DNA from: a virus
Strand: one strand, 5' to 3'
Length of the DNA: 24,529 nucleotides
IMG/VR virus record: IMGVR_UViG_3300046820_000179
Span: 1-24,529 of that record
The position numbers were made by a program, and so were the translations under genes. The notes below the pieces were generated by a model. It saw only the letters and a program-made list of their open reading frames with translations. It was not told the DNA's origin and made no database searches. Positions 5,320 to 20,479 of this stretch are shown one piece after another. Position 1 is the stretch's first letter. The number at the start of each line of letters is the position of its first letter.

Positions 5320-6162
5320 TTAAATTTCCACAATAAAGTTAGAGTCAAAATTAGGATTCTCATCGTTGTAACCGCGAGGGTTACATACTACACGAGTGTC
5401 TCCAATCATATAATCAAATGTTTGGTGCATGTGTCCATGTGTCCATAATTTAATACGGTCGTGATCCAGAATGTATTCACTCAAGTCACTGGCATATCCA
5501 CCGTTCATCAGTGTGTCGTTTTTGTAGTATTCATGGATGCTCAAATGACTCGGAGCATGATGACTACAAATTACAACCTTAGCATCTTGAGGTAAACCCA
5601 ACATTACCGACTTGAAGTATTCTTTAGTACGAACGTGTTCGCTAATAGTGCGAGCAGGCAGAAACTTTTTGAATCCTTCTTTAGCAATGCGAATAAGCCT
5701 AAAGTCATTCATAGCATGTTCGAGATGATACAGGGTCAAACTGTCTGCGTTATTACAGTCAGTCCACAATGTGCCACCGATGAATGTAACATCATCAATT
5801 TGCTTAGTACCCTTGTCCAACAAGTAGACATTTTGAATATTAAGATAACCTAGCATATTGCGAATTTCATCTGCACTCAAATCAAACTTCCCATGATAAT
5901 GCTCGTGGTTACCCATGACATAAATCACATGTTTGAATTGAAAACTCACACGCTGAAAGAAGTCACGATATCTCATGCTACGTTTAGCACGGCCGTGTCC
6001 GTCTGTTGGAAGATTTTCCCATGCAAGACTAGGCGGCTGTTTATGGAGGTCATCTGCAACCATAATGTCGCCACTTAGAACTAGAACGTCAGCACCATTT
6101 TCATTCTTGATGTTGATGTCTTCAAATTCTAAATGTAAGTCTGATACGATTTGTATTTTCAT
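5320..6162 (-). CDS. Calcineurin-like metallophosphoesterase, 280 aa
   Basis: It carries all blocks of the binuclear metallophosphoesterase fold: SDLHLE (7-12), GDI (31-33), GNHEH (84-88), SHHAPSH (200-206) and GHMHQ (243-247). It should hydrolyse a phosphomono- or phosphodiester with Mn/Fe-type metals in the cytoplasm; the substrate is not predictable. It heads an eight-gene unit reaching 2977. MKIQIVSDLHLE fits the family N-terminus, so ATG 6162 is secure. The -10 box ends only 6 nt upstream, which predicts transcription starting on the A of this ATG (a leaderless mRNA) with no Shine-Dalgarno. A second, shorter phosphoesterase is at 17314-17859. Confidence 0.9.
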   Translation of the reverse strand: MKIQIVSDLHLEFEDINIKNENGADVLVLSGDIMVADDLHKQPPSLAWENLPTDGHGRAKRSMRYRDFFQRVSFQFKHVIYVMGNHEHYHGKFDLSADEIRNMLGYLNIQNVYLLDKGTKQIDDVTFIGGTLWTDCNNADSLTLYHLEHAMNDFRLIRIAKEGFKKFLPARTISEHVRTKEYFKSVMLGLPQDAKVVICSHHAPSHLSIHEYYKNDTLMNGGYASDLSEYILDHDRIKLWTHGHMHQTFDYMIGDTRVVCNPRGYNDENPNFDSNFIVEI

Positions 6163-6168
6163 ATTGAT

Positions 6169-6197
6169 ATTATACTACAATTTTGTTTGTTTGTCAA
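6169..6197 (-). promoter_or_regulatory. Consensus sigma70-like promoter, leaderless geometry
   Basis: TTGACA (6197-6192), 17-nt spacer, TATAAT (6174-6169), 6 nt, then ATG at 6162. Both hexamers are perfect consensus. The expected +1 is the A of the start codon. The promoter overlaps the 3' end of the 121-aa gene. Confidence 0.85.
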
Positions 6198-6540
6198 CGG
6201 TATTGGCCCATTTGAGCGACCAGAAGGTATAGTCCACATCTTTGAGTTTGGCTGTGACTGCGTACTTGTAACCATAACTCATAGGATCAGCATATCTGTG
6301 CCAAACAGGAGATTCTATGGAGTGACTCATTACCCAAGAGCCCGACTCACTGTGTTGCCATTTTAGCAAAGGCTCAGCGGCATAGATATCCGGATCTTCT
6401 ACATCACCCATATTGAACGTATGCACTACTACATTATGAATGCGATATGCCCTGTCTCCAATAACCATAGTATCGTAAGTAGGTCCGGAAGGACTATTGC
6501 CTAAATATCCATTTTCTGATCGCATATATGAACTCATCAC
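6175..6540 (-). CDS. Hypothetical phage protein, 121 aa
   Basis: The sequence suggests a small beta-rich domain: YDTMVIGDRAYRIHNVVVHTF in the first half, then WVMSHSIESPVWHRY, YGYKYAVTAKLKDVDYTF and a C-terminal WSLKWANTVDKQTKL. The HxI-x-P-VWHRY segment recurs in phage hypotheticals, but I know no function for it. MM at the start leaves 6540 or 6537 as start; 6540 gives an ATGA overlap with the dehydrogenase stop. It is the last gene of the unit that starts at the ligase. Confidence 0.7.
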   Translation of the reverse strand: MMSSYMRSENGYLGNSPSGPTYDTMVIGDRAYRIHNVVVHTFNMGDVEDPDIYAAEPLLKWQHSESGSWVMSHSIESPVWHRYADPMSYGYKYAVTAKLKDVDYTFWSLKWANTVDKQTKL

Positions 6541-7334
6541 TGCCGCCTGTGTTTTTTATTAATTGATTCTACTCTTTGTAGCAGTTCAAAATCTAAGTCG
6601 TGATCTATTGCTTCTTCAATAATAGCCGCAACGTCTTTTGGAAAGCAAGCACCTCCCCACCCGTACTCGCCATCTGGTCCGGGCACATCCATATGTGTGC
6701 GACCAATTCGCATATCGTATGTAGATAGAGAACACATTGTATCCCAGTCGATGCCTTCTGCTTCTGCTAATTGTTGAAACTCGTTCATAAATGTTACCTT
6801 GGTAGCAAGATAACTATTCATCATGTACTTGTACAGTGCCGCACTCTTAATGTCTGTGTAAAATACATTTTCATCTAGTGTGGGAATACCGTCAGCAATA
6901 ATAATTCGTGCTCGTTCGCACCATTCTTCAGTTCCACCTAGAATTTGATATTCAGCATTAGCATAATCTGCAATGTGGTTACGTGCTGTTAAGAACTCAG
7001 GACAATAAACGATGTTTGGATATTGTTTGTGTAGTCGTGCGTATACGCTAGGTGGTGCAGTAGTCTTACAAATAATTGGAACTTCGTTTGCAATGTTTAC
7101 AAACATCAAGTCTTTAAGAACATTTTCTAAAAAACTTGTATCACACTTTCCGCTTTCTAATGTGGTATCAACAGGTGGACTTGGTACACATACGTAGATA
7201 CCGTCGCACCCAACAAGATCCGACATCTTAGCACTGTCTGGAAGTTTTGGATCAACCACTACGAGTTCCTGCTTACGATGTGCCCACCCTACTGCTGAAC
7301 CCACGTAACCAAATCCTATAATTCCAATTTTCAT
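6537..7334 (-). CDS. Short nucleotide-sugar (UDP-glucose/GDP-mannose type) dehydrogenase
   Basis: 265 aa. The Rossmann fingerprint GFGYVGSAVG is at 7-16, the nucleotide-sugar motif KTTAPP at ~90-95, and the helix with catalytic Lys169 and Asn173 at LYKYMMNSYLATK. The catalytic Cys230 is in GGACFPKD. The family oxidises the C6 hydroxyl of a sugar nucleotide to a carboxylate with two NAD+ via a Cys thiohemiacetal. Typical enzymes are ~390-440 aa; here the third, C-terminal UDP-binding domain is missing and the protein stops ~35 aa after the Cys. It may be a naturally minimal phage form or have a changed substrate. It is coupled to its neighbours by ATGA at both ends. It might modify host envelope sugars or phage glycan precursors, but this is inferred. 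Confidence 0.85.
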   Translation of the reverse strand: MKIGIIGFGYVGSAVGWAHRKQELVVVDPKLPDSAKMSDLVGCDGIYVCVPSPPVDTTLESGKCDTSFLENVLKDLMFVNIANEVPIICKTTAPPSVYARLHKQYPNIVYCPEFLTARNHIADYANAEYQILGGTEEWCERARIIIADGIPTLDENVFYTDIKSAALYKYMMNSYLATKVTFMNEFQQLAEAEGIDWDTMCSLSTYDMRIGRTHMDVPGPDGEYGWGGACFPKDVAAIIEEAIDHDLDFELLQRVESINKKHRRQ

Positions 7335-7555
7335 CTAAGCGCATCCATTGTTAGTTCTTTGCCATATACATGCGACACCAATTGAATGTATCCTTTTGCA
7401 ATAGCAAAGTTAATTTGATCCCTAAGTTGACTTGGGCACTGTGGAAGAATATGAATCATAGCACGGGGATATGTTACCATTCCGTCATTGAGTGTAAAGT
7501 CAGGAGTTCCCTGACGAATTGGCCGCACTTCTCTAAGCGGTTTAGTATTAAACAT
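7331..7555 (-). CDS. Small hypothetical protein, 74 aa
   Basis: Not recognised by function. REVRPIRQGTPDFTLNDGMV leads into a helix with CPSQLRDQINFAIAKGYIQLVSHVYGKEL. It has the look of a small phage regulatory or accessory protein. Its start overlaps the upstream stop (TAATG at 7553-7557), and it is coupled by ATGA to the dehydrogenase. Confidence 0.65.
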   Translation of the reverse strand: MFNTKPLREVRPIRQGTPDFTLNDGMVTYPRAMIHILPQCPSQLRDQINFAIAKGYIQLVSHVYGKELTMDALR

Positions 7556-7809
7556 TACTTACCTTTCAGTGTGTCTAATGTTTGTTTCTTTGCTTCTTCT
7601 TTAACTTCGTCTCTGTGAATAGTTTGGAGTCCGCGAAACAGTTCTTCAATGACATGTATAATAGCATCCTTGCCATCTTCTGTCAAGTGACTGTACTCAG
7701 GACTTACAGTACTTTCATGCCAAACACGTTGATTCTTACTGAGTTCTAACAAAGAACCATACAGCATGTCTTTGTGCATTGAGCGTCGGATATCATATTT
7801 TCTCGCCAC
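7555..7809 (-). CDS. Small helical hypothetical protein, 84 aa (GTG start)
   Basis: The open frame runs much further upstream, but that part overlaps the ligase C-terminus. The best start is GTG at 7809, preceded by AGAGGG with a 7-nt spacing, giving MARKYDIRRSMHKDMLYGS. ATG at 7779 is the alternative (74 aa) but has no clear SD. The body is charged and helical (LLELSKNQRVWHE, GKDAIIHVIEELFRGL, RDEVKEEAKKQTLDTLKGK). It overlaps the ligase end by 17 nt. Function unknown. Confidence 0.65.
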   Translation of the reverse strand: MARKYDIRRSMHKDMLYGSLLELSKNQRVWHESTVSPEYSHLTEDGKDAIIHVIEELFRGLQTIHRDEVKEEAKKQTLDTLKGK

Positions 7810-9106
7810 GGTCAAACCCTCTAAAATGTAAGAAGCGCGGAAAGCGTAAAGAGTAACTTCCATCCTGATTTTGTGTGATAGCGTCCGCACGTACTTCCAC
7901 AACCTGCCCAATAAGGGCATCACGACTAGTCCAAAAAACATCACGATCGGAATCGCTAAACCCAGAACCGCAGTTGACTCGAATTGATCTATTATCATCT
8001 ATACCTTCGCATACAAGGGCACCTAGTTTTCCAACGTTCTTGCCTGTGCCTTCTTCTACAGCAACAACGGTAAGGCTTACTTCAATGAAAGGCTTCAACT
8101 TGAGCCATGCTACTGAACGTTTGCATTTATACCCTGCATCTAAATCTTTGAGCATGATGCCTTCATAACCACCAGCAATGGCCTGTGCGTTAATTTCTTT
8201 GTAACGTTTTTGGCCTTCGGGCTTGTCCAAGTCCACAAGTTCTTGTGCCACAACTGTTACATTGGGCAAGTCTGCTTGATATTTTTCAACCCACTCTTTC
8301 AAATTCTCAGAGCGAATAAGTTGATAAGTGTCAGTTCCACCTGCTTCAAACTGTTCCAATGTAAGCATGTCAAACAAGTTCAATACAGCATCATTGGCTT
8401 TGGCACTGCTCTTGCGATGAATCTGCTTCATCAAGTCTTGGAAAGTACCTGACATGATTTCACCGTCAAACACCATAGGTGCTTTGATAGTATGTGCAAC
8501 TTTGGAAAACTGTTCTTTCACATGCGGAAAGTTTACAAGTTCTTTGCCGTTGCGACTGTATTGATCCACACGACCATTAGGATAAACGATAGTAATAACG
8601 CGAACGCCATCGAGTTTGACTTCGATAAGTTTTCGTCCAGTAACCTTGGATTCATGATTAGCACTATCATGAGCAAGTTGACAACTAAAAACAGGAACTG
8701 CATAGTGCGACCACTTCTTTTCTACAACCTTGTTTACTGTGCTTTCACTAAAGCCTGCTCGCATATCTTTGATAAGAATACGGCGATACCATCCGTTCCA
8801 TTGTGCCTTAGTGGCTTGCGTCATTAGTGCGGTAACGGCATCACGAGCATCATTGCCGGTGAGGTCACGATTACGTAGACGCTCAGTAATACTAGTAAAA
8901 CCATTCCAATCCAGCCCAGGGCCATCTTCATCTGTCTTTTCCTTGATTTGCTTTAGGCCAAATGTAACCATACAGTCCATAGCCATGCGACACCCGTCAA
9001 AGAATTCTGTATTGCCTGCTGTGGCTTCTTTGAGTACAACGGCTTCTTTAACCAAACGACTATTGTCTGATTCGATTTCTGCAATGACTTCCCAAGGTGT
9101 ACGCAT
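7793..9106 (-). CDS. ATP-dependent DNA ligase (T4 gp30-like)
   Basis: 437 aa, somewhat shorter than T4 gp30 (487). Nucleotidyltransferase motif I is EVKLDGVR with the adenylated Lys164. Also seen are motif Ia/III FDGEIMSG (213-220), IIIa LNLFDML (242-248), IV EGIMLKD (315-321) and V WLKLKP (334-339), followed by an OB domain ending FPRFLHFRGFDRGEK. It seals nicks in duplex DNA during phage replication and repair. The frame extends 48 codons upstream into the neighbouring gene, but ATG 9106 is supported by an AGGAG SD 4 nt before it, a promoter ending 25 nt before it, and the MRTPWEVIAEIE N-terminus expected for this family. Confidence 0.93.
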   Translation of the reverse strand: MRTPWEVIAEIESDNSRLVKEAVVLKEATAGNTEFFDGCRMAMDCMVTFGLKQIKEKTDEDGPGLDWNGFTSITERLRNRDLTGNDARDAVTALMTQATKAQWNGWYRRILIKDMRAGFSESTVNKVVEKKWSHYAVPVFSCQLAHDSANHESKVTGRKLIEVKLDGVRVITIVYPNGRVDQYSRNGKELVNFPHVKEQFSKVAHTIKAPMVFDGEIMSGTFQDLMKQIHRKSSAKANDAVLNLFDMLTLEQFEAGGTDTYQLIRSENLKEWVEKYQADLPNVTVVAQELVDLDKPEGQKRYKEINAQAIAGGYEGIMLKDLDAGYKCKRSVAWLKLKPFIEVSLTVVAVEEGTGKNVGKLGALVCEGIDDNRSIRVNCGSGFSDSDRDVFWTSRDALIGQVVEVRADAITQNQDGSYSLRFPRFLHFRGFDRGEKI

Positions 9107-9131
9107 AATGCTCCTAACTGTGTAAGTATAT

Positions 9132-9160
9132 ATTTTACTGCCAAACGAGTCCGTTGTCAA
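9132..9160 (-). promoter_or_regulatory. Sigma70-like promoter of the ligase unit
   Basis: TTGACA (9160-9155), 17-nt spacer, TAAAAT (9137-9132). It lies within the last codons of the 238-aa gene and 25 nt before the ligase ATG. It should serve the ligase through the 121-aa gene at 6175. Confidence 0.75.
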
Positions 9161-9851
9161 GTACTTTAACGTAATTAAGTTGGGTTTCGGCTGTTTTGGT
9201 TGTGTAGTTTTGGGTATGCTTTTTGACTCGGGCCTGAATCTGTTGTTCATCGCCCAAACTGCCTAGTTGCTTTTTACTCAAAAAGTTTACCAAATAGTTA
9301 GTGCTAGTCACTGCTTCGTGTGCATAACATTCAATCTTCTCAATGTACTTGGTGCGAAGATATCTAATATTCAGTGTAACAGTTTCACCTTCTTGCCCGA
9401 TATATTCTTGGATAGTTTTTTTGGCTTCGTCTTTGAGAAACTTTTCCTGGATGTCACGTTCATATATCTTTGGAATGCTGGCAATGATACCTAACTCATT
9501 GAGGCCGACCATTTCGTTCTGTGTGGACGAAAATACTCGTTGCATATAATCGTTAAGTTCGCCGCCTAGTACACCAAAACTTAGTTTGCGATAAAACTTA
9601 ACAATATCGCAGGCAATGTCTAAGTCTTCACGCTTGACTTTGAATAAGGAATTATATTCCTTGTGTGCAAGACTAGGCATCATTTGATAGATTAAATGAT
9701 CCTTGTTGTTCCATCGCTGTTCTCCATTAGGATCGTTAACCAAGTATGTGCTGGTATTAGTGTAACCATTACACCGATAGATAGCACATGCCATGGATAA
9801 CGCTTCTATGGCTGTGAACTTTTTGTCTTTAGGATGTTCAGTCATCGACAT
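9135..9851 (-). CDS. Hypothetical phage protein, 238 aa
   Basis: Not recognised. The N-terminal region (FTAIEALSMACAIYRCNGYTN, then NGEQRWNNKDHLIYQMM) and central helices (DIACDIVKFYRKLSFGVLG, LNDYMQRVF) give way to a Lys/Gln-rich end. The start could be 9851 or 9845 (MSM-); neither has a good SD. It overlaps the previous gene by 14 nt, so translation is probably coupled. Its position in a replication-flavoured unit hints at a DNA-metabolism role, but no motif supports this. Confidence 0.7.
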   Translation of the reverse strand: MSMTEHPKDKKFTAIEALSMACAIYRCNGYTNTSTYLVNDPNGEQRWNNKDHLIYQMMPSLAHKEYNSLFKVKREDLDIACDIVKFYRKLSFGVLGGELNDYMQRVFSSTQNEMVGLNELGIIASIPKIYERDIQEKFLKDEAKKTIQEYIGQEGETVTLNIRYLRTKYIEKIECYAHEAVTSTNYLVNFLSKKQLGSLGDEQQIQARVKKHTQNYTTKTAETQLNYVKVLDNGLVWQ

Positions 9852-10080
9852 ATTGTTGTTGTGCCATCATAATTTGTTTACCAATCTCAATAAGACCAAC
9901 GCCACCGAGAAAGTCATCGACGCAAGCATGAACAGCAACTTCGCCGTCGCCGTCTACGCTGGCAATAACAAACTCGTTAACTTCGCCTGCTTCTACTTGC
10001 TTCTGCAAGTCTGCCAGTACTTCTAACAGATTTTGCTTACGCTTCTTTTCACCGCGATCACCAATGCTAATTACTTCCAT
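9838..10080 (-). CDS. Small hypothetical protein, 80 aa
   Basis: The basic N-terminus (GDRGEKKRKQNLLEVLADLQKQVEAGEVNEF) is followed by a strand pair around VIASVDGDGEVAVHA and an aliphatic helix (GGVGLIEIGKQIMMAQQQ). The layout 'helix, E-AGE--EFVIA--DGDGE, GLIEI' is common in phage proteins of unknown function. A strong SD (AAAGGAGAG) lies just before the ATG. It follows the HNH gene by 1 nt. Confidence 0.7.
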   Translation of the reverse strand: MEVISIGDRGEKKRKQNLLEVLADLQKQVEAGEVNEFVIASVDGDGEVAVHACVDDFLGGVGLIEIGKQIMMAQQQYVDD

Positions 10081-10081
10081 G

Positions 10082-10549
10082 TTACTCTCCTTTAGTACCT
10101 TTACGCCAGTCTTCGTTTAAAATTGTTTTGTCCGAGTTACAATTTAAACATAAAGACCGAATATTTTCTTCTGAATCATCGCCGCCATCTGCTTGTCTGA
10201 TTTGATGGTCGCCGATAATACGATTGCGACACAGTCTATTAAACAGTACAGGGCTAGTTTCCTCTAATGTAGGATACTTCAATCTAACCTGTTCCGATAC
10301 ATCTATACCGCAATCGTCGCATACCCACTTTCGATGTAACGTATGTAATCTATCAATTTTTCCAGGGCCGCCATACTCGACTAGTTTAAGTTGATGATCT
10401 CGACATAGTATGTCACTACCAGGACCTTCAAACATAGACAATGGATTTGCACATCCGTCTGTACAGCAGATACGGTTTAATCGAACCTGCTCCTTGAGAA
10501 TTGAAAGATTTTTTCGTTTATCTTTACTTGGATCGCGTAGTTTAGTCAT
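10082..10549 (-). CDS. HNH-type nuclease-like zinc protein, 155 aa
   Basis: An HNH-like block lies in the C-terminal third: GDHQIRQADGGDDSEENIRSL followed by CLNCNSDKT, with the DH pair, a central Asn and the CxxCN knuckle. Two more Cys clusters, CCTDGC (~29-34) and CDDCGID (~78-84), suggest extra zinc sites. HNH proteins nick or cut DNA, and phage ones act as homing or packaging-associated nucleases; which applies here is not known. A GTG at 10555 is possible, but ATG 10549 forms the TAATG coupling used throughout this region. It is co-transcribed with the ParB-like gene upstream. Confidence 0.75.
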   Translation of the reverse strand: MTKLRDPSKDKRKNLSILKEQVRLNRICCTDGCANPLSMFEGPGSDILCRDHQLKLVEYGGPGKIDRLHTLHRKWVCDDCGIDVSEQVRLKYPTLEETSPVLFNRLCRNRIIGDHQIRQADGGDDSEENIRSLCLNCNSDKTILNEDWRKGTKGE

Positions 10550-11709
10550 TACCACAAATCCTTCTTATCAACAGTAAAACCGTTGTTAGCAGAATATGCA
10601 GGAACCTTCAACTTAGTGCTTTTCTTAAGTTGTGCAATCAGGAAAGGAATACCTGTACGCATTTCTGTTGTGAAACCTCGCACAATAACTTCTCCGTCTT
10701 CGTTCAAGTCTTCGCTGTCGCTGTTGGCTTTGCGATACCATGAAGAATAAGCCATTTTAACTTTATCCCAGAAAGGACCATTAGGACCAAAATCGCCGTC
10801 AAAGTTACCCTTGGTAAAGTTTACAAACTCCAGCAAGTATGTGTCGTCGACCTTAATACCTTGTTCATAGCATAGGTTAAAATACTCGTACAACTGACGT
10901 GCTTCCTTAGGTTCTACAGGACGTTGTTGATTCAAGAAACTCCAGTATGTGGCAAACATACGAGTAACTTCTGGATGTTTACGTGTCTTAAGACTCTTAC
11001 TCATAAGTGTGTCAGCCAGCAAACTAAATGCGCCTGGTTGGTCTTCATCGCCAAACTTTTTGTTTGTAGCAAACAGTCCTGCGGCCGCAAGGTAGTCATT
11101 CTTTAGTGCAGTATCAACCCACTCCGGGTCATCTGCTTTGTCAACTTTAACACCAAATACCATCTGAATGTATTTGTCAATAAAGTCAAGTTCTTCTTTA
11201 GCATCGCCGTTCAACAAAATAAAGTTACGACGAATTTCCAATTTGTGCTTTACATTATACACAACCACAGGTACCATAGTCTTGGCAGTTTGCTCACCGA
11301 ATACTTTGGTAAGAATGATGTACAATGCGATGGCAGTGTGTTGCCCGTCCCAGGCAATGTAATAACCAGGTTTGTTAGCATCTTCATACACTTGAATTGC
11401 CATAACCATTGTACTGCGGAAATTTTGTAGAATGTCCAATACATGTTGCAAATTAAGATTGCGTTGCATTGTAGTGTCAATTAGGATCTTGTCCATTGTA
11501 GTAGGAATGGCTTGACACAAGTGAAGATCTTCAAACTTTGCCAATCCTTTATGTCGGCGTTTAAACTCATCTACCATACCAGTTAGCATGTTTACAAAAA
11601 CTGGAGCAGATTTAAGTGCATCAGCCAAACGTTGTTGCAACGTGATAAAATGGCTAGTTGATTTGAGATAACGCCCGTTGATAGTTTGAGCGTGGGTAAC
11701 TGTCGTCAT
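10549..11709 (-). CDS. ParB/DGQHR-type protein, 386 aa
   Basis: Residues ~75-180 carry the ParB-Srx/DndB-like layout: DTTMQR-N--HV--IL--F (77-98), a strand IAIQVYE, then AWDGQHTAIAL with DGQH at 121-124. Such domains are found in ParB CTPases, DndB regulators and phage 'ParB-like nuclease' proteins. The remaining ~200 aa are helical and unassigned. Function is uncertain: nucleotide or DNA binding is likely, nuclease activity unproved. It heads a four-gene unit (to 9135) with its own consensus promoter and a structured ~81-nt leader. SD AAAGGA lies 7 nt from the ATG. Confidence 0.65.
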   Translation of the reverse strand: MTTVTHAQTINGRYLKSTSHFITLQQRLADALKSAPVFVNMLTGMVDEFKRRHKGLAKFEDLHLCQAIPTTMDKILIDTTMQRNLNLQHVLDILQNFRSTMVMAIQVYEDANKPGYYIAWDGQHTAIALYIILTKVFGEQTAKTMVPVVVYNVKHKLEIRRNFILLNGDAKEELDFIDKYIQMVFGVKVDKADDPEWVDTALKNDYLAAAGLFATNKKFGDEDQPGAFSLLADTLMSKSLKTRKHPEVTRMFATYWSFLNQQRPVEPKEARQLYEYFNLCYEQGIKVDDTYLLEFVNFTKGNFDGDFGPNGPFWDKVKMAYSSWYRKANSDSEDLNEDGEVIVRGFTTEMRTGIPFLIAQLKKSTKLKVPAYSANNGFTVDKKDLW

Positions 11710-11790
11710 ATAATTTTCCTTTCGCGGGCTTCACTTGCCCATTTTTGCGGTCTTCTCTTGACCTATATACACAACAGAATTACTGTGTAT
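11710..11790 (-). promoter_or_regulatory. Structured 5' leader with a 5'-terminal hairpin
   Basis: From the predicted start at ~11790 the RNA begins directly with ATACACA (11790-11784), which pairs with TGTGTAT (11773-11767). A second hairpin GGGC/GCCC (11740-11726) sits just before the AAAGGA SD. A stem on the very 5' end is a known mRNA-stabilising device. Confidence 0.5.
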
Positions 11791-11796
11791 AGGAAT

Positions 11797-11825
11797 ATTA
11801 TACAGTCAGATTAATTAAAAGTCAA
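11797..11825 (-). promoter_or_regulatory. Sigma70-like promoter
   Basis: TTGACT (11825-11820), 17-nt spacer, TATAAT (11802-11797). The -35 box starts directly after the infA stop codon (11826-11828). Confidence 0.85.
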
Positions 11826-12044
11826 TCACAATCTATAAGTAATTCTGCCTTTGGACAAGTCGTATACTGATACTTCCACGCGAACTCTGTCGCCCAAAAT
11901 CATTTTAATTTTGTGTTGGCGCAAACGGCCATTTGTGTAGCATACAATTTCTGGGCCAGTGTCCAAAAGGACCCGAAACATATTGCTAGGTAGTACTTCA
12001 GTTACCTTTCCCTCTAGTTCGAGGAGATCGTCTTTTTTGCTCAT
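11826..12044 (-). CDS. infA: Translation initiation factor IF-1
   Basis: 72 aa, exactly the bacterial IF-1 length, and colinear with it from end to end: LELEGKVTEVLPSNMFRVLLDTG, GRLRQHKIKMILGDRVRVEVSVYDLSKGRITYR. The OB-fold hallmark blocks (LPN-MFRV, GDRV-VE, YDLSKGRI) are intact. The only notable change is in the region matching HVV-AHISGKMR, here EIVCYTNGRLR. IF-1 binds the 30S A-site with IF-2 and IF-3 during start-codon selection. The KGRITYR end is more like alphaproteobacterial than enteric IF-1. It is coupled by ATGA (12041-12044) to the AbrB-like gene. Its mRNA is predicted to be leaderless. Phage-encoded IF-1 is rare but has been reported from very large phages. Confidence 0.93.
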   Translation of the reverse strand: MSKKDDLLELEGKVTEVLPSNMFRVLLDTGPEIVCYTNGRLRQHKIKMILGDRVRVEVSVYDLSKGRITYRL

Positions 12045-12208
12045 ACTTTCTTTAGGATAATTCGGCCTTCGTTAGCCTCGATGTTGATAGTGTCGCCTTC
12101 TTTCCAACCAATTTGTTCACACAATTCGGGAGGAATTTTGAATATGACATTATCCGGATCGCCCGGAATGTCTTCAAACAGTTCTTCAACTAGATAAGTT
12201 TTACTCAT
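12041..12208 (-). CDS. AbrB/MazE-type swapped-hairpin DNA-binding protein, 55 aa
   Basis: VIFKIPPELCEQIGWKEGD, then INIEANEGRIILKKV, is the SpoVT-AbrB pattern (ILPxPxELxxxLGWKEGDxLxI, basic end). The 20-residue lead (KTYLVEELFEDIPGDPDN) is typical of phage versions. These small dimers bind AT-rich DNA as transition regulators or antitoxins; no toxin gene is next to it. It is encoded directly ahead of infA with a 4-nt overlap. ATG 12208 lies 6 nt from the -10 box and is probably the first base of the transcript. It might autoregulate the pair, but this is inference. Confidence 0.8.
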   Translation of the reverse strand: MSKTYLVEELFEDIPGDPDNVIFKIPPELCEQIGWKEGDTINIEANEGRIILKKV

Positions 12209-12214: not shown

Positions 12215-12243
12215 ATTATATGGTCTAACTTTACATAAGTCAA
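12215..12243 (-). promoter_or_regulatory. Sigma70-like promoter, leaderless geometry, of abrB-like/infA
   Basis: TTGACT (12243-12238), 17-nt spacer, TATAAT (12220-12215), 6 nt, ATG at 12208. The predicted +1 equals the A of the ATG, and there is no room for an SD. Confidence 0.85.
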
Positions 12244-13497: not shown

Positions 13498-14033
13498 TTC
13501 CTGCCAGTGTAGCCTGTAAAGCCTAATTTACGGTATACGTTGCGTACACCAATTGCTTGACGCTTTGCATCTTCCAACGCATTGTGTTTAGCATTTTGTG
13601 GCATATCTGCATCTGCTAGTTCAAACAATGTACGTGTGTCGCGAACTTCCCAGAAATTCCAAGGATAAGCACGGCCCAACTTGTCGTAGATGTTTTGCAT
13701 AATCATAACGTCAAATGTAGCACCATGACTCCAAACGTGACTACAGCCCCAAGCCATTGCGTGGAACTGATTTACAACTTCGTGAATTGGAATACGATTA
13801 AGCGGATTAAAGGCTTCTTCCTTAACGTCCACTGCTTGGTTTGCCCACCAGTTAAGTGTATCATCATTAACTGTGCAACCCAATTTATCCTGACTGTCAA
13901 TTTCCACACGAAGGTAAAGTTCCTTCATAGGATCGTTTGTAAACGGATCAAAACGCACTGCACCCAAAGTTAAGATTGTTGCAGTTGTTTTGGTATCTAG
14001 TGTTTCCAAGTCAAACATTAAATGTTGTGCCAT
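13494..14033 (-). CDS. DEDDh 3'-5' exonuclease (DexA/Rv2179c-like)
   Basis: 179 aa. RNase H-like DEDD residues are visible: Asp8 and Glu10 in FDLETLDT, Asp108 in SHGATFDV, and His150 and Asp155 in KHNALEDA. The ILTLGAVRFDP strand, DTLNWWANQA and the RDTRTLFELA helix match the Rv2179c/DexA family of 3'-5' exoribonucleases and exonucleases. It probably trims RNA or ssDNA 3' ends. Its neighbours give no substrate. It is first gene after a consensus promoter with a 27-nt leader. The SD is poor (AAAGAAAA). Confidence 0.85.
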   Translation of the reverse strand: MAQHLMFDLETLDTKTTATILTLGAVRFDPFTNDPMKELYLRVEIDSQDKLGCTVNDDTLNWWANQAVDVKEEAFNPLNRIPIHEVVNQFHAMAWGCSHVWSHGATFDVMIMQNIYDKLGRAYPWNFWEVRDTRTLFELADADMPQNAKHNALEDAKRQAIGVRNVYRKLGFTGYTGRK

Positions 14034-14060
14034 TATTTTCTTTCTATATATTAATTTTTT

Positions 14061-14089
14061 ATTATAAACAATTAGATTAGTAAAGTCAA
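14061..14089 (-). promoter_or_regulatory. Sigma70-like promoter of the exonuclease unit
   Basis: TTGACT (14089-14084), 17-nt spacer, TATAAT (14066-14061). The AT-rich leader to ATG 14033 is 27 nt. Confidence 0.85.
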
Positions 14090-14092
14090 CCT

Positions 14093-14308
14093 TTACAGTT
14101 CATCCAATCGTTGTGCTACTAGATTAGCAATAGTTTGTTCTAACTTTTCAATTTCGTCTGCGGCTTCGTCTAGCAAGTTAGCAATCTTATCTGGCTTGCC
14201 TTCTACGACTGCTAGTCGTCCTGGAATCTGTCTGCGTATCTCTGCTCGCTTACGCAAACGGAATAGCAAACTTTGTTCTGCTACTGGTAAATGGCTTTCG
14301 TCTTTCAT
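14093..14308 (-). CDS. Small coiled-coil protein, 71 aa
   Basis: LLFRLRKRAEIRRQIPGR and EGKPDKIANLLDEAADEIEKLEQTIANLVAQ make a basic helix followed by a leucine-heptad coiled coil. Similar RLRKRAEIR--IP-R---EG--DRIADLLEEAA proteins occur in many phages, with no known function. A TATAAT box ends only 5 nt before the ATG. It is the last gene of the long unit starting at 17238 and may also be made from its own promoter. Confidence 0.75.
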   Translation of the reverse strand: MKDESHLPVAEQSLLFRLRKRAEIRRQIPGRLAVVEGKPDKIANLLDEAADEIEKLEQTIANLVAQRLDEL

Positions 14309-14313
14309 ATTAT

Positions 14314-14342
14314 ATTATACTCTCAAAAAGGGATGTCGTCAT
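14314..14342 (-). promoter_or_regulatory. Possible promoter for the 71-aa gene
   Basis: TATAAT (14319-14314) with ATGACG (4/6 to consensus) 17 nt upstream. It lies 5 nt from the ATG, so a transcript would be leaderless. The weak -35 lowers confidence. Confidence 0.4.
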
Positions 14343-14658: not shown

Positions 14659-14659
14659 A

Positions 14660-15073: not shown

Positions 15074-15263
15074 AATCCATCCTCCACGGACATTGTGACA
15101 ACATTGTGGTACTGCAATCATCTTCTCCGAAACACACAGGACGATATTGTTCGTCACGCATGAGTCTTATAGTTGTTAGCAGTTGTTGTCGTTCTGGACT
15201 AGCACCTAGTCCTTGATTTGATAACTTTGCTTCTCTGTTTAACAGTTCTTGTATAGTGTTCAT
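15063..15263 (-). CDS. Small Cys-containing protein, 66 aa
   Basis: A helical first half (MNTIQELLNREAKLSNQGL, SPERQQLLTTIRLMRDE) is followed by CFGEDDCSTTMLSQCPWRMDC. The four-Cys C-terminus could bind a metal; the C-x5-C and C-PWR-DC arrangement recurs in phage hypotheticals. It is coupled to the 37-aa gene upstream (ATGA) and overlaps the SLOG start. Function unknown. Confidence 0.65.
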   Translation of the reverse strand: MNTIQELLNREAKLSNQGLGASPERQQLLTTIRLMRDEQYRPVCFGEDDCSTTMLSQCPWRMDCGS

Positions 15264-15373
15264 TTGGTTACCACTCTATACTTACTATGCGGATACGTTT
15301 CCATCAACCACTCTAACAAGCCTGGCTGGTTAGGCAGTCTAATAGAATCGTACTTATTTGTAATATAGGTCAT
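15260..15373 (-). CDS. Short coupled ORF, 37 aa
   Basis: A 37-codon frame begins MTYITNKYDSIRLPNQPGL and ends YPHSKYRVVTK. Its ATG overlaps the previous TGA (15370-15373) and its TGA overlaps the next ATG (15260-15263), both as ATGA. It exactly fills an otherwise unexplained 107-nt gap. Composition: LLEWLMETYP helix plus a basic end. Function unknown. Confidence 0.6.
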   Translation of the reverse strand: MTYITNKYDSIRLPNQPGLLEWLMETYPHSKYRVVTK

Positions 15374-15582
15374 TGTTTATCTTTCATTGCATCAAACATG
15401 TTGCCATATTCGTAGCCTTCATAGATGTTCATATCTTCACGATAAATGCCTACCCTGCGCCATACAGTTGTCATCCACTTACGTTTACCATGTACGGTAA
15501 CAGGATGCCAAGCAAACCATTGCTCCCAAGAACCTTTAGGAGGACGGCTTACTGGCCCTGCACTTACTCCGCTGTCGAACAT
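15370..15582 (-). CDS. Small phage protein, 70 aa
   Basis: VSRPPKGSWEQWFAWHPVTV, GKRKWMTTVWRRVG and an acidic Tyr-rich end (YEGYEYGNMFDAM) make up the protein. The 'WFAW-PV-V-G---W--TV-RR' block is a recurrent small phage protein motif with no assigned role, probably a compact beta-sheet. It follows the RNA ligase by 7 nt. Confidence 0.7.
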   Translation of the reverse strand: MFDSGVSAGPVSRPPKGSWEQWFAWHPVTVHGKRKWMTTVWRRVGIYREDMNIYEGYEYGNMFDAMKDKQ

Positions 15583-15589
15583 TTCATCC

Positions 15590-16498
15590 TTAGGCCGCCT
15601 CCATATAGTTGCGTACCCACACTAAGCGTTCTTGTTCGTCCATAGCAGTATACTCCACAATGTTAGCACGAATTGCGTCGATGAGTCCGTAGTACTCTTC
15701 GTCAATGTTGTGCTTGATGTCCTTGTTCAAGTCCACTAACTTGTCTGTTCGTGGATTGCGAGCAACCCACTTTGAAGTCAAGTAGTATGGACTCTTGATC
15801 TTAGCACTCACACCGTCTTCACAATAAAATACATAACCTTCGTGCTTACATTCCTTAGCCATTTGTTCTAGGCGTGCCATGTTAGTTGTATAACTTTCAG
15901 CCCAGTAACAGTTAAGGACATCGCGAGCAAAGTCCATTAGGATGTATGGGTCGTGTAGGATCTTTGAACCCCACATGTTTTCACGCCATCCTAACAAATA
16001 CATGCCTGGCTTTTCTGGAACGATGTGTGGATCGTTTGGATGCACACATTCAAACATATAAGTAACACCTTCGCATTCTGCGTTACCTAATGCCATTCGC
16101 CAGTCAGTCAAAGGCATGTGTGTTACCATCATTTCCTTTGCCATACGTACATAGTCGCTGTCAGTGCTACCAGTAGTAGAAACCAACAGTTCACCATTGT
16201 GAACTGTCATAGCAACCATAAAGCCGTTAACCTTACGGAATGCTGTAACCTTAGTATCTGCCTTTAGAACAGGTGCTTCCTTTTCAATGCCATAGTTGTA
16301 GATCTTTGTGAATGGATATGTAACTAAGTTAAAATCCTTGTCCACAATACTTCCACGGCATTCGGCAATGTACTCGTTCCACAAACCATCGTAGAACACT
16401 TTCTTCTTGTACTTTAGCACGTAGATACCATCGCCACATTCTTTCATGTTAACTAGGTTAGACGATTCTACGTATGCTTTTAATTCGTCTTTAAACAT
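15590..16498 (-). CDS. RNA ligase (T4 Rnl1-type)
   Basis: 302 aa. The covalent nucleotidyltransferase motifs are present: motif I FRKVNGF with Lys89 (KxNG instead of the usual KxDG), motif III MFECVHP (148-154), motif IV EGYVFY (220-225) and motif V AKIKS with Lys233 and Lys235. The upstream CRGSIVDKDFNLVTYPFTKIYNYG is the typical Rnl1 lead. It joins RNA 5'-phosphate and 3'-OH ends with ATP, classically to repair tRNAs cut by host nucleases. It is shorter than T4 Rnl1 (374 aa) at the C-terminus. It is in one unit with the HD hydrolase. A PNK-like kinase and a Cys-phosphatase are encoded ~2.5 kb upstream in transcription order. Confidence 0.85.
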   Translation of the reverse strand: MFKDELKAYVESSNLVNMKECGDGIYVLKYKKKVFYDGLWNEYIAECRGSIVDKDFNLVTYPFTKIYNYGIEKEAPVLKADTKVTAFRKVNGFMVAMTVHNGELLVSTTGSTDSDYVRMAKEMMVTHMPLTDWRMALGNAECEGVTYMFECVHPNDPHIVPEKPGMYLLGWRENMWGSKILHDPYILMDFARDVLNCYWAESYTTNMARLEQMAKECKHEGYVFYCEDGVSAKIKSPYYLTSKWVARNPRTDKLVDLNKDIKHNIDEEYYGLIDAIRANIVEYTAMDEQERLVWVRNYMEAA

Positions 16499-16499
16499 T

Positions 16500-16703
16500 T
16501 TACCTACCTACTGTAATTAATCGAATACGCAATGCGTTCAATCCTGTTTGAATTTTTACTAGTTCATCAAGTGCTTTAGTAAAATGGCCATTGTGATGTT
16601 TATCGTGACTTAGTTTACGGTCCACACCCATGGCCATTTTAACATTAGCAATAGCCGTATCAACTGCTTCAATACGGGCTTCAAGTTTTTCAACTTCTGT
16701 CAT
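16500..16703 (-). CDS. Small coiled-coil protein, 67 aa
   Basis: TEVEKLEARIEAVDTAIANVKMAM and FTKALDELVKIQTGLNALRIRL are two amphipathic helices joined by a His/Lys-rich turn (SHDKHHNGH), suggesting a helical hairpin. It lies between the HD hydrolase and RNA ligase genes with 1-nt gaps on both sides. No function is recognised. Confidence 0.7.
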   Translation of the reverse strand: MTEVEKLEARIEAVDTAIANVKMAMGVDRKLSHDKHHNGHFTKALDELVKIQTGLNALRIRLITVGR

Positions 16704-16704
16704 A

Positions 16705-17238
16705 TCATTCTCCGATGTACTTACGGGCTTCTTCCATTAAGGTAGAATCGCCGCGGGTCATTACTTCTAATAACATGCGCTTTTCTTCTAAGTAAGTCTT
16801 AGCGAAAGCAGGGTCATGTTGTACGATACTACGACTGTTAGAGATTAAATCTGCTAACTTGATTGTTTGTGCTTCAGCAGGTGCTTCGGCAGTGTGAGCA
16901 CGGTCTATTGCCTTGCGAACAGCACGATTGCCGTCTTCGGGCTTTGACACGTCAGTTAACCATCCAACTAACGTAGCGATGTCGATACCAAAAGCCATAT
17001 GGATGTCTGTAAATGTGCAACCAGTGTCTTCCACAACATCGTGCAACCAAGCAGCCGCTACCATTTCTGGAGTAGCACCCGGAACTCCGGCAACAATCTT
17101 TGCAACCTCTGCCGGGTGAACAATGTAAGGCTCACCGGTGTACTTACGCACTTGCTTAACACTAGCATGAGCAGCCATGGCATACACTTGTGCCTTACGC
17201 ACAACGTCCATTCCGCTTTGATCCATTGTAAATTCCAT
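16705..17238 (-). CDS. HD-domain hydrolase, MESH1/SpoT-hydrolase-like
   Basis: 177 aa, the size of a small alarmone hydrolase. It has KYTGEPYIVHPAEVA with His41, AAWLHDVVEDTG with His66/Asp67 and the ED pair at 70-71, and TIKLADLISNS with Asp130 and Asn134. This is the metal-site and ligand-site set of the ppGpp hydrolase domain of RelA/SpoT and MESH1. It lacks the synthetase and TGS domains, so the likely reaction is (p)ppGpp 3'-pyrophosphate removal, which would damp the stringent response during infection. NADPH or another nucleotide is an alternative substrate. It is first gene after a perfect promoter, with SD AAGGAGAG. Confidence 0.82.
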   Translation of the reverse strand: MEFTMDQSGMDVVRKAQVYAMAAHASVKQVRKYTGEPYIVHPAEVAKIVAGVPGATPEMVAAAWLHDVVEDTGCTFTDIHMAFGIDIATLVGWLTDVSKPEDGNRAVRKAIDRAHTAEAPAEAQTIKLADLISNSRSIVQHDPAFAKTYLEEKRMLLEVMTRGDSTLMEEARKYIGE

Positions 17239-17264
17239 ATTGCTCTCCTTCTTACTATGTGTTA

Positions 17265-17293
17265 ATTATAGCACCAAAACTAAGGATTGTCAA
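17265..17293 (-). promoter_or_regulatory. Perfect consensus sigma70 promoter
   Basis: TTGACA (17293-17288), 17-nt spacer, TATAAT (17270-17265). The leader to ATG 17238 is 26 nt and has a strong SD. It serves the nine-gene unit down to at least 14323. Confidence 0.9.
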
Positions 17294-17313
17294 TATAGTA
17301 CAATAGTATTAGT

Positions 17314-17859
17314 TTAGTGGTGCCCTTTTATTTTACCAGTCATTGCGTCTCGAATGGCGTCTTCCATTGTTACTGCAATTCGTCTAGTAGCATCCATGCC
17401 CATATCGCGGCAACGGTATTCTTCCATTCCACTGATGCCTCCGTGCAAGTGTCCATGTAAGTGAACACTGCCTCTGTGCATTTGATCCCATTCTGCAATA
17501 GGATAGTGGAACATACATACCAACGTACCTTCGTAGGTCAATCGCAGATACTGATGCACTTCTGCAAAGCAACCACGGAACGAAGGGTCGTTCAACAACT
17601 TCCTATCGTGATTACCTTCAATCAGAATCTTTGTACCATTACAACGGCGCATATATTCTGTTGCCTTTTGTGCAGGCAAAAATGCCACATCGCCCAAAAT
17701 ATATACAGTGTCTTCTGGCTCAATCAATTCGTTCCATTCCTTGACCATAGTTTCGTTCATATAGTCAAGATCCAATTTAAATCGTGCTCTTGCATCCGGA
17801 CAGAAGGTCATAATGTTCTTATGTCCAAAGTGCAAATCGCTTGTTACCCATGTTGTCAT
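17314..17859 (-). CDS. Metallophosphoesterase, phage type, 181 aa
   Basis: TSDLHFGHKNI (7-17), ILGDVAF (54-60), IEGNHDRK (79-86), FHYPIAEW and HLHGHLHGG carry all metal ligands of the calcineurin-like fold in its short ~180-aa phage/YfcE-like form. It is a cytoplasmic phosphoesterase with unknown substrate. Its position after the 57-aa and metallopeptidase genes does not narrow this. The ATG overlaps the 57-aa gene's stop, and GGAGAG serves as SD. Confidence 0.88.
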   Translation of the reverse strand: MTTWVTSDLHFGHKNIMTFCPDARARFKLDLDYMNETMVKEWNELIEPEDTVYILGDVAFLPAQKATEYMRRCNGTKILIEGNHDRKLLNDPSFRGCFAEVHQYLRLTYEGTLVCMFHYPIAEWDQMHRGSVHLHGHLHGGISGMEEYRCRDMGMDATRRIAVTMEDAIRDAMTGKIKGHH

Positions 17860-18029
17860 TTATATCTCTCCAACAAATCTTTATGTCTTTGTTCAACGTC
17901 CTTCATATGAACGTCAAGTTTCTTTTGTGCCGCATTGCGGTCACTCTTTTCTTTCTGCCAGTTTTCCCAAAGTTCTAATGCTGTAGAACCTTTTGAAAGA
18001 ACTGATCCTCGATATACTACTTGTTTCAT
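17856..18029 (-). CDS. Short coiled-coil ORF, 57 aa
   Basis: It encodes MKQVVYRGSVLSKGSTALELWENW at the start and a charged heptad helix at the end (AAQKKLDVHMKDVEQRHKDL). It begins 1 nt after the metallopeptidase stop and ends in an ATGA overlap with the phosphoesterase gene. It accounts for the whole 170-nt gap. Unknown function. Confidence 0.7.
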   Translation of the reverse strand: MKQVVYRGSVLSKGSTALELWENWQKEKSDRNAAQKKLDVHMKDVEQRHKDLLERYK

Positions 18030-18030
18030 T

Positions 18031-18438
18031 TTATTCGTCTATTGCTTTTCTGAAAATAATTTCTTGCCTTGCAAACGCATCCTTTTCCCAAGGCATGTCC
18101 AAATACTTTGTTTTCTTGCTGTAGGTCTTACCACACCATGTAGCACTACCATTCTTAGCAGTTTTCAAAAATCCTTTTGCCATTTGACGCACATGAACCA
18201 TTTCGTGTGCCAGTGTCAACCCTGCATCTTTTAGTTTCAACTTAGGGCTTATAATAATCACATAACTACCCAACCCGTCCATTGGAACTGTCATTCCCAT
18301 TCCTTCGCATTCGTTAGCCACTCTAACTACTACGCAAGCCCTGCTAGTTTTCAAACCCAATTGGCTAATCATGCTAGGCATAATTGCGTCCAAAAACTTA
18401 CGCTTCTTTTCGCTTCGTGCTGTTACTAGGAATTCCAT
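18031..18438 (-). CDS. SprT-like zinc metallopeptidase-like protein, 135 aa
   Basis: The zinc-binding signature HEMVHVRQ (78-85) sits in a helix after YVIIISPKLKLKDAGLTLA. The third ligand may lie further on (WEKDAFARQE). Small phage proteins with this minigluzincin/SprT-like core are usually annotated as metallopeptidases of unknown substrate. The N-terminus is basic (ARSEKKRKFLDAI). No signal peptide is seen, so it acts in the cytoplasm. It is first gene after a consensus promoter with a 26-nt leader and weak SD (AGAAAG). Confidence 0.75.
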   Translation of the reverse strand: MEFLVTARSEKKRKFLDAIMPSMISQLGLKTSRACVVVRVANECEGMGMTVPMDGLGSYVIIISPKLKLKDAGLTLAHEMVHVRQMAKGFLKTAKNGSATWCGKTYSKKTKYLDMPWEKDAFARQEIIFRKAIDE

Positions 18439-18464
18439 ACTATACTTTCTGTTTGTATGTGTAT

Positions 18465-18493
18465 ATTATACAGTCAAAACGAAACCCTGTCAA
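18465..18493 (-). promoter_or_regulatory. Perfect consensus sigma70 promoter
   Basis: TTGACA (18493-18488), 17-nt spacer, TATAAT (18470-18465). The -35 box is embedded in the 3' arm of a terminator-like hairpin, so an upstream terminator and a downstream promoter are fused. Confidence 0.88.
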
Positions 18494-18531
18494 TCGAAAT
18501 TAACAGGGCTCGTGTGTTGTATTTTTACAAC
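18476..18531 (-). terminator. Two hairpins after the kinase gene, probable terminator
   Basis: GTTGTA-AAAA-TACAAC (18531-18516) directly follows the kinase stop. Then comes CCCTGT-N12-ACAGGG (18508-18485), followed by TTTCGTTTT. The imperfect T-run makes termination probably partial. Confidence 0.5.
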
Positions 18532-18533
18532 GG

Positions 18534-19001
18534 TTAGTTAGCGGCGTACCAAATTTGTGTGAAGCCTTCATCTTCAGTTGGTTCTTCCCAACCGGCAATC
18601 ATACTGTCAACAACCTTTTTTGGAATGTGCTTGCCAGGACGTCCACTTAAACGTACATCCAATTCATCTCGATCAGGTGTACGAAATACAACTGCAATGT
18701 GTTCGTACTTTGGTAAAGTGTTAAACTTACGAGTACGACTTGCTCGAGTTGTGCTAGTTTGATCCCAGATAACATCTACGTTGTTTGCTTGACAGACTAA
18801 TGCTTGGTTAGCCATCAGCCGAACTGCAATTGGCATGTATTCCTTAAACACTTCGTTGTAAGTCTTGCCCTGTTCTTTGGCATACGCTTCAACAAACAAA
18901 TCTGTACTAATAATAGGCATACCTACAGCCCATTCTTGCTCATTAATCCAGGTGCTTTTTCCTGCACCTGGCACTCCAATCAATTGATAACACTTTGGCA
19001 T
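18534..19001 (-). CDS. Polynucleotide-kinase-like P-loop kinase, 155 aa
   Basis: The Walker A motif is GVPGAGKST (9-17), the acceptor-side Asp34 is in ISTDLF, WDQTST is at 79-84, and a lid-type basic segment RLSGRPGKHIP is followed by VVDSMIAGWE. The order and spacing match the 5'-kinase domain of T4 Pnkp and related AAA_33 kinases. It probably phosphorylates a 5'-OH RNA or DNA end, but a small-molecule kinase cannot be excluded. The HAD 3'-phosphatase domain of T4 Pnkp is absent; a Cys-phosphatase gene is instead coupled immediately upstream (TAATG). Confidence 0.78.
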   Translation of the reverse strand: MPKCYQLIGVPGAGKSTWINEQEWAVGMPIISTDLFVEAYAKEQGKTYNEVFKEYMPIAVRLMANQALVCQANNVDVIWDQTSTTRASRTRKFNTLPKYEHIAVVFRTPDRDELDVRLSGRPGKHIPKKVVDSMIAGWEEPTEDEGFTQIWYAAN

Positions 19002-19465
19002 TAGTCTACACTCCTAAAGGTACGCCAATCATCAATGTTAGGTTTCTCGTCACTGTCGTAAGTCCAACCTAACGCTTTCATCATACGATGCTTAACTAAC
19101 AAGTTAGGGCTACGAAAACGTCCAGTGTCCTGGAAGCCCATCATAACACCAACTTCACAAACTGCTCCGCTACGGCAAATGCCAGCGAAACAATGTACAA
19201 CCACATTCATGCGATTGTCTTTTGCATGTTGTAGCAAGCGAACAAGTTCGTTAGCCTGCTCTTGACTGCACTTCATTGCTTCTTCCAGCACTTGGTCTTT
19301 TTCCTCTACATCCAAAAATTCAAAGTTGTGAATCTCTTTGAACTGGTGTGCAGGAGTAGGACGCCAACTACCTGGATCAACAATGCTAATCAGCATTGAA
19401 TTCTCTCCGGCTTCGTGATGAAATCTTTTTGGAATATCATCAGCCGCTACGTTTTCAATCCACAT
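19001..19465 (-). CDS. CX5R (dual-specificity/PTP-type) phosphatase, 154 aa
   Basis: The active-site loop VVHCFAGICRSG has nucleophile Cys92 and Arg98 (HCX5RSG). The general acid is probably in the VDPGSW loop (~29-34) or the preceding acidic region. At 154 aa it is the size of a minimal DSP. Substrates could be phosphoproteins or, as in baculovirus-type RNA phosphatases of the same superfamily, RNA 5' ends. The coupling of its stop to the kinase ATG (TAATG at 18999-19003) argues that the two work together. Confidence 0.8.
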   Translation of the reverse strand: MWIENVAADDIPKRFHHEAGENSMLISIVDPGSWRPTPAHQFKEIHNFEFLDVEEKDQVLEEAMKCSQEQANELVRLLQHAKDNRMNVVVHCFAGICRSGAVCEVGVMMGFQDTGRFRSPNLLVKHRMMKALGWTYDSDEKPNIDDWRTFRSVD

Positions 19466-19466
19466 A

Positions 19467-19835
19467 CTATTCCTTATTTTTCAATGCTTCAACACTAGCG
19501 AATAGTTCTTCCCATTGTTTACTTGGCTTAACACCTTCTTCGTAATTTCGGATAGCAAGGAAGTCCTTGTGATTTTCCGGAATCTTAAAGTAGATGTCTG
19601 CATAAGTGTTGTCAAAGTCGCCGTCTTCGTCATGACTGTACCATGGATGGTCTTCAACCCACTCTGGGAAGTAGTCTTCGCGGTTACCTCCGCCGCAACG
19701 AGTATGAACAACAATGTAACCATCTTCCATGTAAACATTACGAAAACGGCCAAATTCTTCTCGTGTTGCGCCTAGTAACTCCAACAGTTTATCACTGTCG
19801 GGGTTCATACCAAAAACCATATTGTATAGTGACAT
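19467..19835 (-). CDS. Conserved phage hypothetical, 122 aa
   Basis: MSLYNMVFGMNPDSDKLLEL, GRFRNVYMEDGYIVVHTRCGGGNR, then W-HD-DGDFDNTYADIYFKIP. The GRFRD-Y--DG-I-V-TR-GGGNR and DDDFD-TYA--F motifs are widespread in phage proteins with no known function. A GTG at 19841 is in frame, but ATG 19835 has AAGGAG at the proper 5-nt spacing. The start lies just after the upstream stop. Confidence 0.8.
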   Translation of the reverse strand: MSLYNMVFGMNPDSDKLLELLGATREEFGRFRNVYMEDGYIVVHTRCGGGNREDYFPEWVEDHPWYSHDEDGDFDNTYADIYFKIPENHKDFLAIRNYEEGVKPSKQWEELFASVEALKNKE

Positions 19836-19837
19836 AC

Positions 19838-20206
19838 TCACTCCTTTACAAAACTAACACCTTCTGAATAATAACCATTTGACTGGCCTAACCAACGCAA
19901 GTCTACATACCCCTTGCGAGTTGCAAACTTGTAAAAAGTCCATGTGTAAGACTCGTATGCTTCAAAGTCTGCTGGGCTTTCACCTTCAACTTCTTCAGCA
20001 ATCAAAATCTCCGAACCTACTAAGTCTTGCAGGTCCCCTACTACATCTTCTAACACTACGCTTTCGCAACAGTCTTGCTCGTGATACATACGATATGTCT
20101 CACCGTCTGTAGTCTTAAAAATTAGTTCGTTACCTTCATCAGTCAACGACTCTAGGGTCTTACCCTTTAGCACGTCGACATTACAATACTTTTCCCAATA
20201 TCCCAT
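19838..20206 (-). CDS. DUF7448-like protein, 122 aa
   Basis: LIFKTTDGETYRMYHEQDCCESVVLEDVVGDLQDLVG, then WTFYKFATRKGYVDLRWLGQSNGYYSEGV, is the full signature (HEQDCCE-V-ED--GD--DL; WTFY---T-KG-V--RW-G-SNGYYSE). The adjacent Cys pair and conserved His suggest a metal or redox site, but no activity is known to me. AAGGAG SD precedes the ATG. It is coupled to the following gene. Confidence 0.8.
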   Translation of the reverse strand: MGYWEKYCNVDVLKGKTLESLTDEGNELIFKTTDGETYRMYHEQDCCESVVLEDVVGDLQDLVGSEILIAEEVEGESPADFEAYESYTWTFYKFATRKGYVDLRWLGQSNGYYSEGVSFVKE

Positions 20207-20216
20207 AATTCACTCC

Positions 20217-20444
20217 TTACGTTCTCTTACGTTTCGTTCCACCAATACGGCTTGCCTTATTCCAATCGTATGCAACACCATCTGGGCACTTGCCGTCCTT
20301 AACGCTGTCTACACCAAATATACCACATGCTTCAAAGTCTGGACCCACGATGGTTACAAACTCATTCATATGCTTGGCTAAATTCATTGCTTCAGCCAAT
20401 GTAAGAACTTTAAATGTTTCTTCTTTACCTATTATTTTATACAT
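20217..20444 (-). CDS. Small hypothetical protein, 75 aa
   Basis: MYKIIGKEETFKVLTLAEAMNLA at the start, FVTIVGPDFEACGIFGVDSV in the middle, and a basic tail GGTKRKRT. In-frame codons exist upstream, but they would lie inside the promoter, so ATG 20444 is chosen. It lies exactly 6 nt after the -10 box, predicting a leaderless mRNA. It is first gene of the unit leading to the phosphatase and kinase. The C-terminal KRKRT suggests nucleic-acid contact, but the function is unknown. Confidence 0.75.
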   Translation of the reverse strand: MYKIIGKEETFKVLTLAEAMNLAKHMNEFVTIVGPDFEACGIFGVDSVKDGKCPDGVAYDWNKASRIGGTKRKRT

Positions 20445-20450
20445 GCCACT

Positions 20451-20479
20451 ATTATAGCAAATTTTCACCAGAATGTCAA
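20451..20479 (-). promoter_or_regulatory. Perfect consensus sigma70 promoter, leaderless geometry
   Basis: TTGACA (20479-20474), 17-nt spacer, TATAAT (20456-20451), 6 nt, ATG at 20444. The predicted +1 is the A of the ATG. Confidence 0.88.

Follow-up and report, generated by a model that had tools for sequence, protein, structure and literature searches.

Does a virus use one core promoter in two layouts, one in which transcription would begin on the A of the start codon and one in which a leader with a Shine-Dalgarno (SD) sequence precedes it? The window, by which we mean the whole 24,529-base virus record, carries its large open reading frames (ORFs) all on the minus strand except for the first. 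TTGACN-N15..19-TATAAT was found nine times in it, always on the minus strand, against an expectation of 0.11 and at most one in 100 shuffles. Re-reading the sequence confirmed that the arrangement proposed in an earlier note on this DNA, TTGAC[A/T]-N17-TATAAT-N6-ATG, stands exactly at 6162, 12208 and 20444 on the minus strand. At 14308, which had been listed with them, TATAAT-N5-ATG is present with two overlapping TATAATs upstream, but the -35 (ATGACG) is poor and not consensus. Similarly, four of the five promoters said to combine the same consensus with a leader (2959, 14061, 17265 and 18465) do carry it, whereas the one at 9132 reads TAAAAT and not TATAAT. The "25-33 nt leaders" ascribed to these five proved to be -10-to-ATG distances; a +1 at the 7th base past the -10 would give leaders of 19-27 nt. 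Promoters at 11797, 20684 (before a tRNA region) and 22377 (near-consensus) had been missing from that list. A search for nucleotide neighbours of the window among cultured phages returned none. The promoters and the genes they would serve are as follows.

6169..6197, minus strand: promoter TTGACA-N17-TATAAT, N6 to the ATG, serving the 6162 gene
5320..6162, minus strand: predicted leaderless gene for a 280-aa metallophosphoesterase whose Pfam Metallophos match starts at residue 1
12215..12243, minus strand: promoter TTGACT-N17-TATAAT, N6 to the ATG, serving the 12208 gene
12041..12208, minus strand: predicted leaderless gene, 55-aa MazE/AbrB-like protein without an internal Met
20451..20479, minus strand: promoter TTGACA-N17-TATAAT, N6 to the ATG, serving the 20444 gene
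20217..20444, minus strand: predicted leaderless gene, 75-aa protein with no assigned function, 5-6 nt distance kept in about 20 relatives
14314..14342, minus strand: weak promoter ATGACG-N17-TATAAT, N5 to the ATG, serving the 14308 gene
14093..14308, minus strand: probable leaderless gene, 71 aa, 5-nt distance also in relatives
2959..2987, minus strand: leadered promoter, gene start 2925, distance 33, predicted leader 27 nt, SD GGAG
9132..9160, minus strand: leadered promoter TTGACA-N17-TAAAAT, DNA ligase start 9106, distance 25, SD AGGAG
14061..14089, minus strand: leadered promoter, exonuclease-like gene start 14033, distance 27
17265..17293, minus strand: leadered promoter, gene start 17238, distance 26, SD AAGGAG
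18465..18493, minus strand: leadered promoter, gene start 18438, distance 26
11797..11825, minus strand: long-leader consensus promoter, about 87 nt from the ATG at 11709
22377, minus strand: near-consensus promoter, 53 nt before the AhpC start (22318)

A survey of TATAAT-to-ATG distances, which the earlier note had proposed in the expectation of a peak at 6 nt, was carried out in viral contigs matching the phosphoesterase (6162) and AhpC (22318) genes together with seven phage records 135-344 kb long; five of the eight large records searched encode a Gp23 capsid protein of T4 type. The consensus set comprised 446 promoters whose -35 departs from consensus at no more than one base, and an ATG was counted if its frame ran for 50 codons or more. 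ORF starts numbered 57 at 5-7 nt, 22 at 8-17 nt and 166 at 18-35 nt, so that the histogram rises sharply at 5-6 nt, dips at 8-17 nt and rises again, more broadly, at 18-35 nt. The commonest short distance was 6, followed by 5, while only two sites had a distance of 7. These 57 starts belong to 34 families, and among family-unique distances within 0-17 nt, 35 of 54 fell at 5-7 nt (p = 4e-15), in agreement with the proposal that the design recurs too exactly to be accidental. Pooling the large records reproduced both modes (20 at 5-7, 7 at 8-17 and 57 at 18-35 nt). Overall, 57 of 294 consensus-promoter gene starts in these viruses, about one in five, had the leaderless layout. The four window sites and the peak in the relatives alike place the predicted +1 on the start codon or within about 3 nt of it. 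Moreover, the leaderless share of TATAAT sites fell from 12.8% with at most one -35 mismatch to 5.2, 1.8 and 0.8% with two, three and at least four mismatches, respectively, and TATAAT without a -35 gave hardly any peak at 5-7 nt.

The sequences on either side of the ATG also separated the two layouts. Among the related phages, an SD-like motif preceded only 1 of 57 leaderless starts vs 152 of 197 leadered ones (p = 5e-27), confirming that the leaderless design dispenses with the SD. A pyrimidine occupied position -1 of the ATG in 52/57 leaderless and 114/197 leadered starts (p = 1e-6), a preference that weakened after collapsing to families (29/34 vs 67/105, p = 0.02). Leadered promoters favoured a pyrimidine followed by A at the same 6th-7th bases after the -10, and initiation on the A of the ATG would predict both preferences. 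Codons 2-5 of the leaderless genes were A-rich (52% vs 38%), which may aid the reading of leaderless mRNA.

Several observations indicated that the ATG behind these promoters is the true start. A conserved start further downstream in the same frame and preceded by an SD, named in advance as evidence against the layout, was seen in 6/57 leaderless and 12/197 leadered genes, an excess that is not significant. In the phosphoesterase, the metal-binding motif DLH forms residues 8-10 and would be lost from a later start, and the Pfam domain begins at residue 1. In leaderless families elsewhere, the J-domain begins at residue 2 and the profiles of 5'-3' exonuclease, DNA polymerase and clamp loader at residue 3; in several leaderless ORFs, then, a conserved domain begins within residues 1-4. 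In four phosphoesterase relatives (L061, L074, L077 and L078) the aligned start is ATT; the real start is probably the in-frame ATG found two codons before it (ATGACTATTAAA).

We then compared the layouts among homologues. For the 75-aa gene at 20444, about 20 relatives have diverged promoters at distance 6 or 5. A leaderless score was obtained for 22 distinct upstream regions, whose spacers are dissimilar and whose distance is 6 in nearly every case. Its remaining relatives mostly lack a good nearby promoter, and about half of them carry an SD-like motif; no relative of this protein was found among cultured phages. For the 14308 gene, five sequences keep distance 5, with this distance seen in L643, L644, L665 and L685, the last with an exact TTGACA, while most other relatives bear an SD and lack a promoter of their own. 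The 12208 gene clearly has its layout in common only with L567 (82% identical), and in most of its other relatives the gene is without a promoter of its own. Both the start and the leaderless state of the phosphoesterase are kept in close relatives, the neighbouring clade has distances of 26-30 nt, and a distant clade has a similar promoter core with the ATG either directly at 6 nt or at 18-22 nt, behind a short insert that bears an SD. The tree requires at least four changes between the leaderless and leadered designs. None of eight records of cultured phosphoesterase relatives had the distance-6 layout upstream. The exonuclease-like gene at 14033, leadered in the window, has leaderless homologues in L096, L109 and L127.

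We consider it likely that these are strong sigma70-type promoters whose +1 falls on the A of the ATG, producing leaderless mRNAs that 70S ribosomes read via the 5' AUG. The host's RNA polymerase, carrying a sigma70-type factor, would initiate at the 6th-7th base after the -10, that is, at the A of the ATG, and the resulting mRNA would start with the A of AUG and have no SD; 70S ribosomes would be expected to recognise this 5' AUG. In the second layout, the same core promoter would precede a leader predicted at about 19-27 nt and SD-bearing in most cases. Small changes between the -10 and the ATG switch a gene between layouts, and operon-internal genes often rely on SD sites instead. The position of +1 is what the geometry and initiator bases suggest, and we infer leaderless translation by 70S ribosomes from the same sequence features. 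That two designs share one core promoter, as the earlier note had it, is supported by the distance distribution, the -35 dependence, the SD loss, the -1 pyrimidine and the conservation. The leaderless genes may be early, as their sigma70-type promoters and many DNA-metabolism functions would allow, and the layout could offer compactness or independence from SD-based initiation.

Other explanations of the short distances were weighed against this one. Initiators such as CATA or TATG could be frequent and long frames could follow them by luck. At distance 6, ATA was as frequent as ATG (67 vs 56 among the 446 promoters), so that part of the ATG peak reflects an initiator preference for AT-R, and the 5'-proximal ATG before the AhpC gene is not conserved (below); by the same preference, a single A-to-G change may be able to create a leaderless start. 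Chance is nevertheless highly improbable as the whole explanation in view of the family-unique excess, the conservation of the layout across diverged promoters and the near absence of a peak at TATAAT without a -35; more than half of the ATGs at 5-7 nt (57/95) start long frames. Read-through from upstream genes could instead be the main source of expression, with the adjacent promoter incidental, as would suit the 12208 and 14308 genes, whose relatives often lack a promoter of their own and, for 14308, mostly bear an SD. We find this quite unlikely, since an SD-like motif is almost absent from the leaderless starts and the -35 dependence of the geometry suggests selection on the promoter itself.

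It is unlikely, though less so, that the RNAs have very short leaders, starting 1-4 nt before the ATG with a tiny 5' tail, in which case they would be functionally near-leaderless. Start-site choice commonly shifts by 1-2 nt, and distances of 7-8 do exist, chiefly in the arbitrary viral contigs described below. Against this, the related phages peak at 6 and then 5, with distance 7 nearly empty, and the -1 pyrimidine preference suits initiation on the A.

The layout extended beyond the relatives of the window. In an arbitrary set of 229 viral contigs, picked solely because an ATG follows a consensus promoter at 3-30 nt, family-unique distances peaked at 6 (23) and 7 (11), and an SD was present in 1/54 leaderless vs 121/159 leadered starts. 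Leaderless genes in this set encoded B-family DNA polymerase, clamp loader and exonucleases, and five members of one primase family were leaderless, all at distance 6. The 5-7 nt peak was absent from a Firmicutes-heavy bacterial sample (3/103 ORF starts). In Gammaproteobacterial genomes, 7/36 exact-consensus sites lay at 6-7 nt when counted with no ORF filter, and we therefore do not claim a phage-exclusive layout. Among annotated cultured phages, one of five candidate sites checked agreed with the annotated start, namely the exonuclease gp244 of Pseudomonas phage PA5oct at TATAAT-N7-ATG (record position 158242), which has relatives of the leaderless type in L258 and L237; the annotated starts differ at the other four.

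Further features of the window were recorded alongside. The AhpC-type peroxiredoxin gene (21779-22318, minus strand) shows 89-97% identity in its 80 best environmental viral matches. The 53-nt stretch between its -10 and ATG (22318-22400, minus strand) holds a further ATG, at distance 6, whose 16-codon frame runs up to the AhpC start; the idea that this encodes a conserved leader peptide behind a 5' AUG was rejected, with the ATG kept in only 9/52 sequences. Upstream of AhpC, many relatives carry CTCAGT...ACACTGAG, which could form a hairpin. A ClpP protease gene lies at 3560-4186 (minus strand), and a GOLLD RNA (Rfam, 186.5 bits) at 24081-24529 (minus strand), its 5' end missing at the contig edge, encloses tRNA-Arg(tct) at 24405-24478. 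Within 20582-20712 (minus strand), the consensus promoter at 20684 is followed by a tRNA-like stretch at about 20584-20660, for which neither ARAGORN nor Rfam gave a call, upstream of tRNA-Arg(cct) at 20497-20571. At 18465-18510 (minus strand), a hairpin resembling a terminator, with TCGTTTTGA after it, contains the -35 in its 3' arm; such an overlap also occurs in L071, L118 and L420, with no clear overall enrichment. Terminator-promoter overlap was rejected as a general cause of compactness (10/446 vs 2-8 in shuffles, none leaderless).

A broader reading, that leaderless starts form a distinct translational class used on purpose by large T4-related and other phages, seems doubtful to us. Were it true, replication proteins, for example, might still be made while host takeover alters SD-based initiation, and the single-base and small-indel switches between homologues would amount to tuning. 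If about one in five consensus-promoter starts is indeed leaderless, gene finders that score the SD may miss or misplace starts, and the geometry would provide a sequence-only test for leaderless genes of uncultured viruses. Natural homologous pairs differing only in leader type would likewise permit a direct test of leaderless mRNA use.

We found no phage-wide survey of -10-to-ATG geometry among the open-access papers searched. Leaderless genes are already known from lambda, Actinobacteria and Deinococcus and the novelty is modest; the interest is in the breadth, the two-peaked geometry and the layout switching. In a one-line remark, the AR9 paper (PMC5312081) likewise states that phage transcripts are "often leaderless"; that remark gives no geometry or survey, and AR9's own leaders are 26-491 nt. 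Leaderless phage mRNA was first found in lambda, as cited in PMC3160421 and PMC9031893, the latter reviewing 5'-AUG recognition on leaderless mRNA by 70S ribosomes. Like lambda cI, the genes described here would be transcribed from the start codon; unlike cI, which is one regulated repressor, they span many families, among them polymerase, primase, clamp loader and nucleases. In Deinococcus-Thermus (PMC12340547), a -10 at fixed spacing from the ORF also drives leaderless genes, and the spacing requirement has been tested experimentally, but the -35 is dispensable there, whereas the leaderless share here depends strongly on it. A further parallel is with the bacterial TA-led genes of Zheng et al. 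2011 (PMC3160421), in which a sigma70 -10 about 10 bp before the start is likewise read as a sign of leaderless mRNA. In contrast to those genes, the ones described here belong to phages and combine the -10 with a near-perfect -35, leaderless and SD-led starts of one genome have a common core promoter, and homologous genes switch between the two layouts.
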